In this document: positions 45,856-51,599 of the stretch, in pieces
Numbering within the stretch: position 1 is the stretch's first letter
How the letters are laid out: every line of letters starts with the position of its first letter
Assembly (NCBI RefSeq): GCF_004323735.1
Contig: NZ_CP036455.1
Coordinates: 553,101-617,100, forward strand
Reading direction: 5' to 3'
Length of the DNA stretch: 64,000 bases
DNA from: Streptomonospora litoralis
GTDB taxonomy: Bacteria > Actinomycetota > Actinomycetes > Streptosporangiales > Streptosporangiaceae
Notes under the pieces: generated by a model
Databases searched by the model: none
The model's input: the letters and a program-made list of their open reading frames with translations, nothing else
What the model was told of the DNA's origin: nothing
Made by a program: the position numbers and the translations under genes

Positions 45856-47580
45856 ATGACAGCAGCGCGGATGGGGCCCGAGGAGCGAACCGAGGCGCTG
45901 GCGGCGATGGGCAGCGGCGAACTCGACGTCCTGGTCGTCGGCGGCGGCATCGTCGGAGCCGGTGTCGCGCTGGACGCCGTCTCGCGCGGGCTCTCCGTCG
46001 GGCTGATCGAGGCCCGCGACTTCGCGTCGGGGACCTCCAGCCGCTCCAGCAAGCTCATCCACGGCGGCCTGCGCTATCTGGAGCAGCTCGATTTCGAACT
46101 GGTCCGCGAGGCGCTGGTCGAACGCGGGCTGCTGCTGCACCAGATCGCCCCGCACCTGGTGCGGCCGGTGCCGTTCCTCTACCCGCTGACCAAGCACTGG
46201 GAGCGGCCTTACATCGGTGCCGGCGTCACCCTCTACGACACGCTCGCGATGTCCATGGGAACCGCGCGGGGACTGCCGCACCACCGCCACCTCACCCGCG
46301 GCAGCGCCTTGCGGGTCTTCCCTGGCCTGCGCCGCGACGCGCTGGTGGGGGCGGTGCAGTACTGGGACGCTCAGGTCGACGACGCCCGATACGTCCTCAC
46401 CGTGCTGCGTACGGCCGCGACCTACGGCGCGCACGTCGCCTCGCGCGTGCAGGCTGTGGGCTTCCTGCGCGAAGGAGAGCACGTCACCGGGGCGCAGGCC
46501 CAGGACCTGGAGACCGGGGAGCGGATCGACATCCGCGCCAAGCAGGTGGTCAACTCCGGCGGCGTGTGGACCGACGACATCCAGGAGATGGTCGGCGGAC
46601 GCGGCCAGATCCACGTGCGGCCGTCGAAGGGCATCCACCTGGTGGTGCCGCGCGACCGGGTCCAGGCGTCGTCGGGGCTGATCCTGCGCACCGAGAAGAG
46701 CGTGCTGTTCGTCATCCCGTGGGGCCGGCACTGGATCATCGGCACCACCGACACCGACTGGAACCTGGACAAGGCGCACCCGGCGGCGAGCCGGCGCGAC
46801 ATCGACTACGTTCTCGACCACGTCAACTCCGTCCTCCGTGTCCCGCTGACCAGGGACGACGTCGAAGGTGTGTACGCGGGGCTGCGCCCGTTGCTGACCG
46901 GGGAGTCCGACGAGAGCTCCAAGCTGTCGCGCGAGCACACCGTGGCCCATCCGGTGCCGGGGCTGGTGCTGATCGCGGGCGGCAAGTACACCACCTACCG
47001 GGTGATGGCCAAGGACGCCGTGGACGCCGTCGCCCACGGTCTCGACGGCCGCATCCCGCAGTCGGTGACCCACCGGCTGCCACTCTCCGGCGCCGAAGGC
47101 TACTCCGCGATGTGGAACCAGCGCCGCAAGCTCGCCCACGAGTCGGGCCTGCACCGCGCCCGGATCACCCACCTGCTGCGCCGCTACGGCACCATGATCG
47201 ACGAGGTGCTGGCGCTGATGAAGGAGCGTCCCGACCTCAAGGAGCCGCTGACCGGCGCCGACGACTACCTGCGCGCCGAGGTCGTCTACGCCGCGGCCTA
47301 CGAGGGGGCGCGCCACCTCAACGACGTCCTCGCCCGGCGCACCCGCATCTCCATCGAGACCTGGGACCGCGGCATCGCGGTCGCGGAGGAGGCGGCGCAC
47401 CTGATGGCCGAACCGCTGGGGTGGAGCCAGGAGCACATCGACCGCGAGGTCGCCTACTACCGCAAGCGCATCGAGGTGGAGCGCTCCGCCCAGGAGCAGG
47501 ACAACGACAACGAGGCCAACGCGGTCCAGCACGGCGCCCCCGAGATCGTGCCGGCGGCCGCATCGGTCGACGGGGTCTGA
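45856..47580 (+). CDS. glpD: FAD-dependent glycerol-3-phosphate dehydrogenase
   Basis: 574 residues from an ATG with AAGGAAG upstream. FAD-binding LDVLVVGGGIVGAGVALDAVSRGLSVGLIEARDFASGTSSRSSKLIHGGLRYL is the GlpD signature. VIPWGRHWIIGTTDTDW and LIAGGKYTTYRVMAKDAVD are also present, with the C-terminal GlpD domain. It oxidises sn-glycerol-3-phosphate to dihydroxyacetone phosphate at the membrane and passes electrons to quinone. There are no glpF/glpK neighbours. An acidic tail of ~30 residues is not conserved. Confidence 0.96.
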   Translation: MTAARMGPEERTEALAAMGSGELDVLVVGGGIVGAGVALDAVSRGLSVGLIEARDFASGTSSRSSKLIHGGLRYLEQLDFELVREALVERGLLLHQIAPHLVRPVPFLYPLTKHWERPYIGAGVTLYDTLAMSMGTARGLPHHRHLTRGSALRVFPGLRRDALVGAVQYWDAQVDDARYVLTVLRTAATYGAHVASRVQAVGFLREGEHVTGAQAQDLETGERIDIRAKQVVNSGGVWTDDIQEMVGGRGQIHVRPSKGIHLVVPRDRVQASSGLILRTEKSVLFVIPWGRHWIIGTTDTDWNLDKAHPAASRRDIDYVLDHVNSVLRVPLTRDDVEGVYAGLRPLLTGESDESSKLSREHTVAHPVPGLVLIAGGKYTTYRVMAKDAVDAVAHGLDGRIPQSVTHRLPLSGAEGYSAMWNQRRKLAHESGLHRARITHLLRRYGTMIDEVLALMKERPDLKEPLTGADDYLRAEVVYAAAYEGARHLNDVLARRTRISIETWDRGIAVAEEAAHLMAEPLGWSQEHIDREVAYYRKRIEVERSAQEQDNDNEANAVQHGAPEIVPAAASVDGV

Positions 47581-47697: not shown

Positions 47698-49152
47698 GTG
47701 CTGCTGACGATCACCACCACCCGCGAACCGGCGACCGACCTCGGCTTCCTCCTGCACAAGCACCCCGACCGCATCCAGCGGTTCACCCAGTCCTACGGCA
47801 CGGCCCACGTGTTCTACCCCGAGGCCGAGGCGGCACGCTGCACCGCAGCGCTGCTGCTGGAAGTGGAACCGGCGGAGCTGCTGCGTACCCGCAAGGCGGG
47901 GGCGGGCTCCGCGGACTTCTCGCTGGCGCGCTACGTCAACGACCGCCCCTACGCTGCTTCGTCGCTGTTCGCGGTCGCGGTGGGCGACGTCTTCCGCAGC
48001 GCGCTCCGGGGAACCTGCAAGGCGCGGCCCGAGCTGGCGGCCGCGCCGCTGCCGCTGACCCTGAGCCTGCCCGCCGTCCCGTGTCCCGGCGGGCCCGATC
48101 GGGCCCACCGCCTGTTCGAGCCGCTGGGCTGGCAGGTCGACGCGCGGCCCGCGGAGCTCGACCCCGGGCTGCCCGGTTGGGGCGACTCCCGCTATGTCGG
48201 CCTCACCCTCACCGGCGAGCTCCGGCTGGCCGACGCGCTGAGCCACCTGTACGTGCTGCTGCCGGTGCTGGACGGCGCAAAGCACTACTGGGTCGGCCCG
48301 GACGAGATCGACAAGCTGCTGCGGGCAGGCGAGAGGTGGCTGCCCGGCCATCCCGAACGCACCTGGATCACCCGGCGCTACCTCGCCCGCCAGGCGGGGC
48401 TGGTGCGCACGGCCGTCGCGCGGCTGAGCGAGCTGGACGACCGTTCGGCCGACGTGCCCGACGACGCGGCGGTAGCCACCGACCCCGGCGAGGAGGAGCC
48501 GCCCCCGCCCGGGGTACCGTCCCCGGCGGGCACCGAGGCCGCCGAGCACGAACCCTCTCAGGCGGACCGCCGTGCGGGCGCGGTGCTGTCCGTCCTCGAA
48601 GCCGAGGGCGTGCGCTCGGTGCTCGACATCGGCTGCGGTTCGGGCAAGCTGCTCGCGCGGCTGCTGGACGACCCCGGCTTCACCGCCGTCGTGGGCGCCG
48701 ACGTCTCCGCCGCCACCCTGGAGCAGGCCCGCCGGCGGCTGCGCGTCGACCGCCTGCCCGAGCGCGACCGGCGGCGGCTGGACCTCTTCACGGCCTCGGC
48801 GCTCTACAGCGACCCGCGCTTCCGCGGCTACGACGCCGCCGTGCTGATGGAAGTCGTCGAACACATCGACCCGGCGCGGCTGCCCGTCGCCGCCGAGGTG
48901 GTGTTCGGCCGCACCGCGCCGCGCACGGTCGTGGTCACCACGCCCAACGCCGAATACAACCGGCGCTACGAATGGCTGCCCGAGGGCGCGTTCCGACACA
49001 CCGACCACCGCTTCGAGTGGACTCGCGCCGAGTTCCGCGCCTGGGCCGGCTCCGTCGCCGACACCTACGGCTACCGGGTGCGCCACCTGCCCGTCGGCCC
49101 CGAGGACCCCGAGTTCGGGGCATCCACCCAGATGGGAGTCTTCACGAAGTGA
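47698..49152 (+). CDS. hen1: 3'-terminal RNA ribose 2'-O-methyltransferase Hen1
   Basis: 484 residues from a GTG. N-terminal ~240 residues are the bacterial Hen1 N domain (LLTITTTREPATDLGFLLHKHPDRIQRF ... HYWVGPDEIDKLLRAGERWLPGHPERTWITRRYL). After a Pro/Glu-rich linker comes the methyltransferase: VLDIGCGSGKLLARLL, and the manganese ligands in MEVVEHIDP and HTDHRFEW. It methylates the 2'-OH of a cleaved RNA's 3' end before ligation, making the repaired junction resistant to re-cleavage. It is coupled to pnkp by a 4-base overlap. Confidence 0.95.
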   Translation: MLLTITTTREPATDLGFLLHKHPDRIQRFTQSYGTAHVFYPEAEAARCTAALLLEVEPAELLRTRKAGAGSADFSLARYVNDRPYAASSLFAVAVGDVFRSALRGTCKARPELAAAPLPLTLSLPAVPCPGGPDRAHRLFEPLGWQVDARPAELDPGLPGWGDSRYVGLTLTGELRLADALSHLYVLLPVLDGAKHYWVGPDEIDKLLRAGERWLPGHPERTWITRRYLARQAGLVRTAVARLSELDDRSADVPDDAAVATDPGEEEPPPPGVPSPAGTEAAEHEPSQADRRAGAVLSVLEAEGVRSVLDIGCGSGKLLARLLDDPGFTAVVGADVSAATLEQARRRLRVDRLPERDRRRLDLFTASALYSDPRFRGYDAAVLMEVVEHIDPARLPVAAEVVFGRTAPRTVVVTTPNAEYNRRYEWLPEGAFRHTDHRFEWTRAEFRAWAGSVADTYGYRVRHLPVGPEDPEFGASTQMGVFTK

Positions 49153-51599
49153 GCGCCTTCGAACCGACCGGGCCCGCGGCCGACACGGCCGGGGGCGATT
49201 CCGCCGACGACCGCGGGGCCGACTCCGCGGGCCGTGTGCTGCCGGTGCCCGAGATGGGCCTGGTAGTGCTCATCGGCGTCTCCGGCTCCGGCAAGTCCAC
49301 CTTCGCCGCGCACAACTTCCGGCCCACTCAGGTGATCTCCTCCGACTCCTGCCGGGGCCTGGTCAGCGACGACGAGAACGACCAGGCGGCCACCGGCGAC
49401 GCGTTCGAGCTGCTGCACCACATCGTCGGTACCCGGCTGCGGCGCGGACTGCTGACCGTCGTCGACGCCACCAATGTGCAGCAGCGCGCCCGCGCCGAGC
49501 TGGTGCGCATCGCCAAGAACCACGACGTCATCCCCACCGCCGTCGTGCTGGACGTCCCCGAGTCGCTCGCCCGCGAGCGCAACGCCGCCCGCCCCGACCG
49601 CGACTTCGGCGCGCACGTCGTCTCCCGGCAGCGCCGCGAACTGCGGCGCGGACTCTCCCGGCTGAACAAGGAGGGATTCCGCCGGGTCTACGTCCTCGAC
49701 GGCGCCGCCGAGATCGACGCGGCGACCGTGGCCACCGAGCGCGGCTGGAGCGACAAGCGCGACCTGAGGGGCCCGTTCGACATCATCGGCGACGTGCACG
49801 GGTGCCGGGCCGAGCTGGAGGAGCTGCTGGGGACGCTCGGCTACGCCGTGGAGCGCGACGGCGGGGGACGCGCCGTTGGCGCCCACCACCCCGACGGGCG
49901 CACTGCCGTGTTCGTCGGCGACCTCGTCGACCGCGGCCCCGACACCCCCGGCGTGCTGCGCCTGGCGATGGGCATGGTCGGTGCCGGGAACGCGCTGTGC
50001 GTGTGCGGCAACCACGAGGACAAGCTGGTGCGCGCGCTCAAGGGGCGCAAGGTCCAGGTACGCCACGGGCTCGCCGAGTCCCTGGAGCAGCTCGGCGCCG
50101 AACCGGAGGACTTCCGCGACCGCGTCGTCGGTTTCTGCGACGGCCTGCTCAGCCACTACGTACTCGACGACGGCGGGCTCGTGGTCGCCCACGCCGGGCT
50201 GAAGGAGGAGTACCAGGGGCGGGCGTCGGGCCGGGTGCGCTCCTTCGCCCTCTATGGCGAGACCACCGGGGAGACCGACGAGTTCGGCCTGCCCGTCCGC
50301 CACCCCTGGGCGCGGGAGTACCGCGGCCGGGCATCGGTCGTCTACGGCCACGTGCCCACGCCGCGGCCGGAGTGGATCAACAACACCATCTGCCTGGACA
50401 CCGGCTGCGTTTTCGGTGGACGGCTCACCGCGCTGCGCTACCCCGAGCGCGAGCTCGTCGGCGTCGCGGCGCACCGCACCCACTTCGAGCCCGCCCGGCC
50501 GTTTCCGGCCGAAGGCGAGGACACCCCCGAGCACGCGGGCGCGAACGAGGCCGGTGACGCCGGCGGGACCGCGGACATCGGCGTCGGCGACGTTCTCCCC
50601 GAGGGCCCGGCCGGGCACATCGGCACCGGTTTCGGCAACGTCGCCGTGCCCCGCGACAACGCCCTCGCCGCACTGGAGGCGATGAGCCGCTTCGCCGTGG
50701 ACCCGCGGTGGCTGCTGTACCTGCCGCCCACCATGCCGCCCGCGCCGACCGCGGCCGAGGCCGACGTGCTCGCTGAACTGCGCGCGGGCATCACCGCGGC
50801 CGGGCTGTGGGAAAAGCTGGACACCGACTGGATCGCCCTGGACGGCGAGATGCTGCCCTGGTCCGCCAAGGCCGAAGGGCTGATCCGCGCGCAGTACGCG
50901 TCGGTCGGCGCGGCCGCCCGCGCCGCCCTGCCCGCCGCCCGGCGCGCGCTCGCCGCCGCGGGAAACCGCGGCCTGGACGTCGCCGACCTGGCCGAGCGGA
51001 CCGAGCGCCGCGAGCGCGACATCGAGGCGTTCAGCGCGGTTTACCGGAACCACGCCTGGCCCACCGACGGTACGGCCGGGTTGCGCTACGCCCCGTTCGC
51101 AATCCTGGCCGCCGAAGGGCGGGAGTTCACCGGAGCGGACCACCTGTGGCACATGAGCGTGGCGGAGCAGCTGGCCGAACACTGCCCACTGGTGCTCACC
51201 ACCCGCTATCGGGTGGTCGACACCACCGACCCCGACGCCACGGCCGCCGCGGCCGCCTGGTGGCGCGAACTGGTGTCCGCGGGCGGCGAGGGCATGGTCG
51301 TCAAACCCGCGGACGGCGCCCGGGCCGCCGACGCCCGCGGCCTGGCCCAGCCGGGGCTCAAGGTGCGCGGCCCGGAGTACCTGCGCATCGTCTACGGTCC
51401 CGACTACCTGGCTCCCGAGCGCCTGACGGCCCTGCGCGACCGGCGGCTCGGCCGCAAGAACCGCATGGCCCTCAACGAACACAAACTGGGCCTGGAGTCC
51501 CTCGCGCGCCACGCCGCCGGCGAACCACGCTGGCGCGTCCACCAGCCGGTGTTCGGAGTCCTCGCCCTGGAGTCCGAAACGGTAGACCCGCGCCTGTGA
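49149..51599 (+). CDS. pnkp: Pnkp polynucleotide kinase-phosphatase with incomplete ligase domain
   Basis: 816 residues. Kinase domain: P-loop LIGVSGSGKSTFAAHNF. Phosphatase domain: FDIIGDVHGC, VGDLVDRGPDT, CGNHEDKL, VVAHAGLKEE and YGHVPTP, all metal ligands present. The ligase domain starts with MSRFAVDPRWLLYLPPTMPP, then jumps to LRAGITAAGLWEKLDTDWIALDGEMLPWSAKAEGL, GGEGMVVKP and QPGLKVRGPEYLRIVYGP. The ~70-80 residues that should hold motif I (EEKHMGSRA-like, with the AMP-accepting Lys) are missing. 5'-kinase and 3'-phosphatase healing should work; self-sealing should not. It is followed by a strong terminator. Confidence 0.93.
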   Translation: MSAFEPTGPAADTAGGDSADDRGADSAGRVLPVPEMGLVVLIGVSGSGKSTFAAHNFRPTQVISSDSCRGLVSDDENDQAATGDAFELLHHIVGTRLRRGLLTVVDATNVQQRARAELVRIAKNHDVIPTAVVLDVPESLARERNAARPDRDFGAHVVSRQRRELRRGLSRLNKEGFRRVYVLDGAAEIDAATVATERGWSDKRDLRGPFDIIGDVHGCRAELEELLGTLGYAVERDGGGRAVGAHHPDGRTAVFVGDLVDRGPDTPGVLRLAMGMVGAGNALCVCGNHEDKLVRALKGRKVQVRHGLAESLEQLGAEPEDFRDRVVGFCDGLLSHYVLDDGGLVVAHAGLKEEYQGRASGRVRSFALYGETTGETDEFGLPVRHPWAREYRGRASVVYGHVPTPRPEWINNTICLDTGCVFGGRLTALRYPERELVGVAAHRTHFEPARPFPAEGEDTPEHAGANEAGDAGGTADIGVGDVLPEGPAGHIGTGFGNVAVPRDNALAALEAMSRFAVDPRWLLYLPPTMPPAPTAAEADVLAELRAGITAAGLWEKLDTDWIALDGEMLPWSAKAEGLIRAQYASVGAAARAALPAARRALAAAGNRGLDVADLAERTERRERDIEAFSAVYRNHAWPTDGTAGLRYAPFAILAAEGREFTGADHLWHMSVAEQLAEHCPLVLTTRYRVVDTTDPDATAAAAAWWRELVSAGGEGMVVKPADGARAADARGLAQPGLKVRGPEYLRIVYGPDYLAPERLTALRDRRLGRKNRMALNEHKLGLESLARHAAGEPRWRVHQPVFGVLALESETVDPRL

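Follow-up and report, generated by a model that had tools for sequence, protein, structure and literature searches.

Bacterial Pnkp and Hen1 are understood as an RNA repair machine in which sealing is the last step, and stand-alone healing enzymes such as HD-Pnk combine a kinase with a phosphatase and have no ligase. According to PMC4411300, the N-terminal domain of Hen1 (Hen1-N) contacts an insertion domain of the ligase, both in the Pnkp1-Rnl-Hen1 structure and in the ligase module of Pnkp-Hen1 compared with it; in Rnl, Hen1-N also contacts the C-terminal ligase part. Here we analyzed a 64,000-nucleotide stretch of the Streptomonospora litoralis genome (NZ_CP036455.1, positions 553,101 to 617,100; the whole stretch is called the window) that contains a hen1-pnkp operon whose Pnkp is missing part of its ligase domain. 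The otherwise orthodox operon has probably undergone a recent, natural, in-frame deletion of 213 nucleotides (nt); as judged from sequence, its product would heal RNA ends, perhaps methylate them, and no longer seal them, an early step towards a healing-only Pnkp.

The gap in the window ligase

An earlier reading of the sequence alone (the sequence-only reading) had proposed that this Pnkp is missing a ligase segment of about 70-80 residues that carries motif I, and alignment bears out both the size and the coordinates it gave. In the window genome (G000), the ligase profile PF16542 (PNKP_ligase) matched at positions 1-35 and 102-376, with 36-101 missing, and the solved Pnkp ligases 4drf and 3ty8 matched the window protein (W) in two pieces, again with the middle missing (phmmer). 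Relative to the closest intact relative, G004, one of the five other species of the genus (G001-G005), W is shorter in frame by 71 codons, or 213 nt, the junction falling between residues A536 and E537. Both QEKHMGSRA, which includes the motif I lysine, and TRTGR lie in the lost stretch; motif I with its nucleotidyl lysine, otherwise a mark of bacterial Pnkp, is therefore absent from W. Of 79 ligase columns that are invariant in 25 segment-bearing ligases, W has lost the 16 that fall in the gap and keeps all of the other 63 (one reference, L027, has no insertion domain, which lowers the number of columns counted as invariant). The ELMPWS-, EGMVVKP- and KxRG-like motifs that the sequence-only reading listed as remaining are present as DGEMLPWS, GEGMVVKP and KVRG.

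Both genes score above the cut-offs of their families: W reached 1145.6 bits against TIGR04075 (bacter_Pnkp; cut-off 750), and Hen1 reached 652.7 bits against TIGR04074 (cut-off 340). The pnkp start codon overlaps the hen1 stop codon, as expected of an operon, and the pnkp frame is open through the deletion junction without interruption. The features of the locus are as follows.

47698..49152, + strand: hen1, 3'-terminal RNA ribose 2'-O-methyltransferase with N-terminal ligase-activating domain (TIGR04074; Hen1_L PF12623, 1-243)
49149..51599, + strand: pnkp without the ligase motif I segment, 816 amino acids (aa), GTG start (TIGR04075; open frame)
49239..49724, + strand: 5'-OH polynucleotide kinase domain, residues 31-192 (phmmer to 4gp6)
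49275-49298, + strand: P-loop GVSGSGKS in the kinase domain
49746..50498, + strand: 2',3' metallophosphatase domain, residues 200-450 (phmmer to 4j6o)
50637..51596, + strand: ligase-domain remnant, residues 497-816 (PF16542 1-35 and 102-376; best Foldseek matches 4e6n and 4drf)
50756..50757, + strand: deletion junction, 71 residues or 213 nt missing (aligned with G004 and 24 other intact ligases)
50880..51053, + strand: two long helices taken as the insertion domain, retained (helices 82-110 and 116-139 in the model of residues 497-816)
51285-51308, + strand: ligase motif GEGMVVKP, retained (sequence; invariant in 25 intact ligases)
51360-51371, + strand: ligase motif KVRG, retained (sequence; invariant in 25 intact ligases)
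45856..47580, + strand: glpD-like gene upstream of hen1 (PF01266 and PF16901)

We infer the insertion-domain identity of the two helices from PMC4411300. The glpD-like gene served as a locus marker in relatives, with synteny in G002, G005, G026, G557 and G719-G722. The window contains no tRNA gene.

Structure models were compared for the intact and the truncated ligase. The G004 ligase was modeled with a predicted local distance difference test (pLDDT) of 87.1 and a predicted template modeling score (pTM) of 0.86, and the part that W is missing (residues 42-112 of this model) comprises strands 63-68, 73-80 and 96-99, helices 49-58 and 83-89, and the first part of another helix. The window ligase model (pLDDT 79.4, pTM 0.73) is still like Pnkp-C of the Pnkp-C/Hen1-N structures (TMq 0.85, Foldseek). 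At E <= 0.001 it gave 11 matches, every one to a Pnkp or Rnl ligase, and no DNA ligase scored better than E 0.49; the G004 model gave 54 matches at the same threshold, with DNA ligases from E 5.7e-6. According to these models, the truncated ligase loses its similarity to DNA ligases.

A possible origin of the gap can be read from G004, in which an 8-bp direct repeat, CGTGCTGG, occurs at both gap edges with its copies exactly 213 bp apart. This arrangement, seen in a relative rather than in the ancestor, suggests slippage or illegitimate recombination; slippage between the repeats would have cut out motif I together with three core strands. With the nucleotidyl lysine lost, W would no longer form ligase-AMP, and RNA sealing would be lost with it. 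The rest of the window ligase has a ratio of nonsynonymous to synonymous substitution rates (dN/dS) of 0.20-0.25 to the congeners G002-G004; the G002-G003 pair gave 0.21, and pairs with the decayed G001 gave 0.33-0.41 (NG86 estimates, which are rough in GC-rich genes and of use for comparison only). Because the rest of the ligase, the kinase-phosphatase and Hen1 are clean, either the deletion is recent, or the remaining ligase is still useful, or the assembly is in error.

An assembly or sequencing artefact, in which the strain's ligase is intact and 213 nt were dropped from a GC-rich stretch with short repeats, is quite unlikely. It would explain why the ligase is otherwise undecayed (all 63 columns kept, and the low dN/dS to intact congeners); the flanking repeat could mislead a polymerase or an assembler, and one gap in three is in frame by chance. 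However, the assembly consists of 2 contigs in 5.8 Mb and is 99.99% complete, the gap is exactly in frame, and several relatives show ligase damage by other lesions. In addition, 8-bp repeats are far below the size that collapses in normal assemblies.

Healing domains, Hen1 and candidate replacement ligases

The kinase-phosphatase of W and its Hen1 look intact by conservation, in agreement with the sequence-only reading. None of the 132 kinase-phosphatase columns that are invariant in 30 references is changed, the P-loop and metallophosphatase residues among those kept. Of 117 near-invariant Hen1 positions, defined as conserved to 97% or more across 86 references, 113 are kept, the methyltransferase motif among them; the unusual residues of Hen1 are D57E, L288Q, A397V and A406T. 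The kinase and phosphatase would thus still convert 5'-OH and 2',3'-cyclic-phosphate ends to 5'-phosphate and 3'-OH, and Hen1 would still find its docking site in the retained insertion domain and methylate the 2'-OH at the RNA terminus. A complex of W and Hen1 that heals and methylates is conceivable, because W keeps both parts that Hen1-N contacts, the insertion domain and the C-terminal ligase part.

The sequence-only reading had also suggested that another ligase may be needed for sealing, a proposal that has found no support so far. G000 has one Pnkp, and no further PF16542 piece or second Pnkp ligase domain was found in it at E <= 0.001; no Rnl-specific model was run, and Rnl of the Pnkp1-Rnl-Hen1 type is only ~20% identical to Pnkp ligases (PMC4411300). 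A genome search for RtcB was negative in G000; RtcB is full-length in four of the five congeners, the fifth, G005, giving only a 42-position match. The PF09414 RNA ligase was found in none of the six species of the genus, G000 included. Overall, the search for a replacement in G000 was negative for RtcB, PF09414 and PF16542, and did not extend to T4 Rnl1-like and other ligase families.

That another RNA ligase seals in trans seems highly improbable. Healing and sealing are split in some systems, namely T4 Pnkp with Rnl1 and Capnocytophaga Pnkp1-Rnl-Hen1 (PMC4411300). G000, however, yielded no candidate in the families searched. RtcB, moreover, acts on unhealed ends. Loss of sealing without replacement appears to be the simpler reading, because relatives drop the ligase outright, often together with Hen1, while the healing half persists. 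Cut RNAs would then be healed and not rejoined, since no RtcB or PF09414 ligase replaces that of the window. Of the sequence-only interpretation, two points stand, namely that the nucleotidyl lysine is lost and that the healing and Hen1 sequences look intact; the need for another ligase is so far unsupported by the searches made.

Ligase lesions and healing-only Pnkp in relatives

The same gap was found in no relative examined. The motif EKH[MS]GSR is kept in all 80 named loci from the protein search and in 110 of 116 extracted Pnkp frames, the six frames without it being those of the window, G024 (cut by a contig end), G001, G539, G689 and G023; five more genomes, which gave no Pnkp frame under the extraction filter, were read individually. 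Within the genus, none of the five other species has lost the segment, and the motif has changed to EKHAGTR in G001. In this last species, Pnkp (L154:2489-4903) has also lost the insertion domain in frame, and the genome has RtcB and no Hen1. In a kinase-phosphatase tree, G001 and G004 group together (ultrafast bootstrap 95) within a clade that includes W (100). We therefore rejected the gap as a clade-defining trait: both neighbors of W keep the segment, and because G001 groups with the segment-keeping G004, the lesions of W and G001 are independent.

Ligase damage of other kinds recurs among relatives, in counts that are lower bounds (the kinase-phosphatase scan scored 5 first-look candidates per genome). 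Three genomes have full-length Pnkp frames with altered ligases: in G490 (L156) the motif I lysine is replaced by S and 25/79 invariant ligase columns are changed; in G550 (L159) the lysine is replaced by Q and the C-terminal ligase tail is shifted; and G558 (L157) has EKHAGTR, GAG for GEG, and 10/79 columns changed. G539 has lost most of its ligase to a deletion, and its Hen1 is internally deleted. In G689 (L150:2342-3604), an in-frame deletion joins the kinase and the start of the phosphatase to the C-terminal ligase part, with profile positions 261-687 missing. The independent ligase lesions of G001, G490, G550, G558, G539 and G689 count in favor of a natural deletion in the window.

The shifted ligase tail is common to the sister genomes G534 (L158) and G550 (L159), and because they share it, it looks inherited rather than a sequencing error. 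Single frameshifts in G005, G026, G687 and G632 may be sequencing errors; that of G005 (L128) splits Pnkp in the phosphatase.

Decay is clearly uneven in two of these genomes. In G490 it reaches 3/132 invariant columns of the kinase-phosphatase, 25/79 of the ligase and 41/117 positions of Hen1, and in G001 it reaches 0/132 in the kinase-phosphatase versus 7/79 in the ligase (p 9e-4). G558 has a Hen1 significantly worse than its kinase-phosphatase (26/117, p 3e-4), and Hen1 of G550 is near normal (4/117 changed).

A census based on PF16542 alone favors ligase lesions, and we therefore repeated it with the kinase-phosphatase profile. This profile matched 288 of the 315 family genomes at E <= 0.001, of which six with E > 1e-14 were set aside as unrelated, leaving 282 (PF16542 matched in 277/315). 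Six of the 282 (G023, G536 and G719-G722) had no ligase match, and Hen1 was not found in them at E <= 1e-20. G719-G722 (L177-L180) are all four genomes listed for the genus g325. Their stop-free frames of 491-513 aa end soon after the phosphatase, and the Pnkp gene lies directly behind glpD, with the lytic-transglycosylase-like gene of the window upstream as well (this one detected only by tblastn). Because these neighbors match, the g325 Pnkp is at the orthologous place, with hen1 and the ligase gone; neither neighbor was found around Pnkp in G023 (L155, 14 kb) or G536 (L182, 16 kb). The g325 phosphatase is constrained, with dN/dS of 0.23-0.37 (0.15-0.39 in pairs with intact ligase). Changes in the 132 invariant kinase-phosphatase columns number 4-7 in g325, 7 in G023 and 1 in G536, compared with 0-5 in leave-one-out references.

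These genomes bear on the view that the window holds a simple pseudogene in the making, in which RNA repair is unselected in this strain, the whole operon will decay, and healing is not kept for itself. RtcB is missing from G000 too, Pnkp is frameshifted in G005, G026 and G687, the kinase-phosphatase profile finds nothing in 27/315 family genomes, and the g325 kinase has an elevated dN/dS. We consider this rather unlikely nonetheless: the window kinase-phosphatase and Hen1 appear intact, decay in G490 is far heavier in the ligase and Hen1 than in the kinase-phosphatase, and in all four g325 genomes the kinase-phosphatase frame has no stops and its phosphatase part is under constraint. A recent deletion in the window would instead fit a recurrent trend in the family, in which the sealing module decays and the healing module is kept, Hen1 is lost in most of the advanced cases, and the four g325 genomes represent the endpoint.

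Loss of the insertion domain goes together with loss of Hen1 in seven of the genomes searched (G001, G023, G536 and G719-G722). Where the insertion domain is retained (G000, G490, G550, G558 and G557), at least part of Hen1 is retained as well, although it has decayed in G490 and G558, and only its N-terminal part is left in G557. Outside Actinobacteria, the Pnkp ligase of Candidatus Thiomargarita nelsonii (L027:6001-8283) has EKHSGSR and no insertion domain; our script found no Hen1-like frame in that locus.

Several observations weigh against the deletion as a natural first step towards healing alone. A clean deletion without other decay is also how an assembly error would look, and because the gap is known from a single genome, there is no sign that the deletion allele is fixed. 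Near-invariant Hen1 positions are changed four times in the window versus once in G004 and not at all in G002 and G005. The excess of ligase changes over kinase-phosphatase changes is not significant in G558 (10/79 vs 8/132, p 0.13); in G550 (17/79 vs 3/132) it lies mostly in the shifted tail, without which it falls to 5/66 (p 0.12). In G689, Hen1 is intact beside a Pnkp that has lost the phosphatase and half of the ligase, which makes this genome a contrary case to the joint loss of insertion domain and Hen1 described above. Finally, dN/dS of the g325 kinase is 0.56-0.90 (0.22-0.58 in pairs with intact ligase), and because of this elevation the kinase may be partly relaxed there, and even a 'healing-only' Pnkp may be decaying.

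The converse rearrangement also occurs. Behind glpD, G557 (L181:4124-6193) encodes an in-frame fusion of Hen1-N (profile 1-246; six near-invariant positions changed) with a ligase that keeps 78/79 invariant columns; methyltransferase, kinase and phosphatase are absent. It is the mirror image of the healing-only genomes, with an intact-looking ligase, and may be a sealing module that survives alone. A second fusion, in G278 (L141:4033-5124), joins Hen1 residues 1-120 in frame to the C-terminal ligase part, with all between deleted. In a wider sample of the phylum, PF16542 was present in 43/396 genomes and was nearly full length in one open piece in 35 of these 43; the remaining eight are G000, G105 (insertion), G278 and five fragmented cases. 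Ligase loss is thus the exception overall.

Comparison with known systems

The pattern across relatives is of greater interest than the one deletion. Tentatively, selection may have repurposed Pnkp-Hen1 repeatedly, turning RNA repair into RNA end-processing, with the window as a first step, g325 as the endpoint and G557 as the mirror image. It is likewise possible, if doubtful, that in such repurposing sealing is discarded and end-healing (with 2'-O-methylation for a time) is kept, such that cut RNAs receive processed ends and are not rejoined. Should several lineages indeed keep healing without sealing, end-healing would have a use of its own, perhaps in preparing cut RNAs for decay or tailing. 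The Hen1-N-ligase fusion of G557 offers a natural test of whether these two parts form a minimal sealing unit.

Among the literature titles listed, none dealt with a Pnkp that lacks motif I or the ligase. The Pnkp1-Rnl-Hen1 system of Capnocytophaga gingivalis resembles the window in that healing and sealing are separable and work with Hen1; it differs in that, according to PMC4411300, its Pnkp1 is a homologue of T4 Pnkp and a separate Rnl seals, whereas no PF16542 domain besides that of Pnkp was found in the window genome. The idea that Capnocytophaga Pnkp1 carries a dead ligase was rejected on the same grounds. With the orthodox Pnkp-Hen1 systems of TIGR04075 and TIGR04074, the window shares the operon, the domain order and, by sequence, an intact kinase, phosphatase and Hen1; it differs in the absent motif I segment, without which ligase-AMP would not form. 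HD-Pnk has another phosphatase fold and is not known to derive from Pnkp-Hen1 by ligase loss. Closest in outcome are the ligase-less Pnkp of g325, G023 and G536, whose kinase-phosphatase belongs to the same family and has no sealing module attached; the g325 genes also share the glpD locus with the window. In all of these genomes, the whole ligase and Hen1 are absent, whereas the window keeps Hen1 and, as a remnant, most of the ligase.

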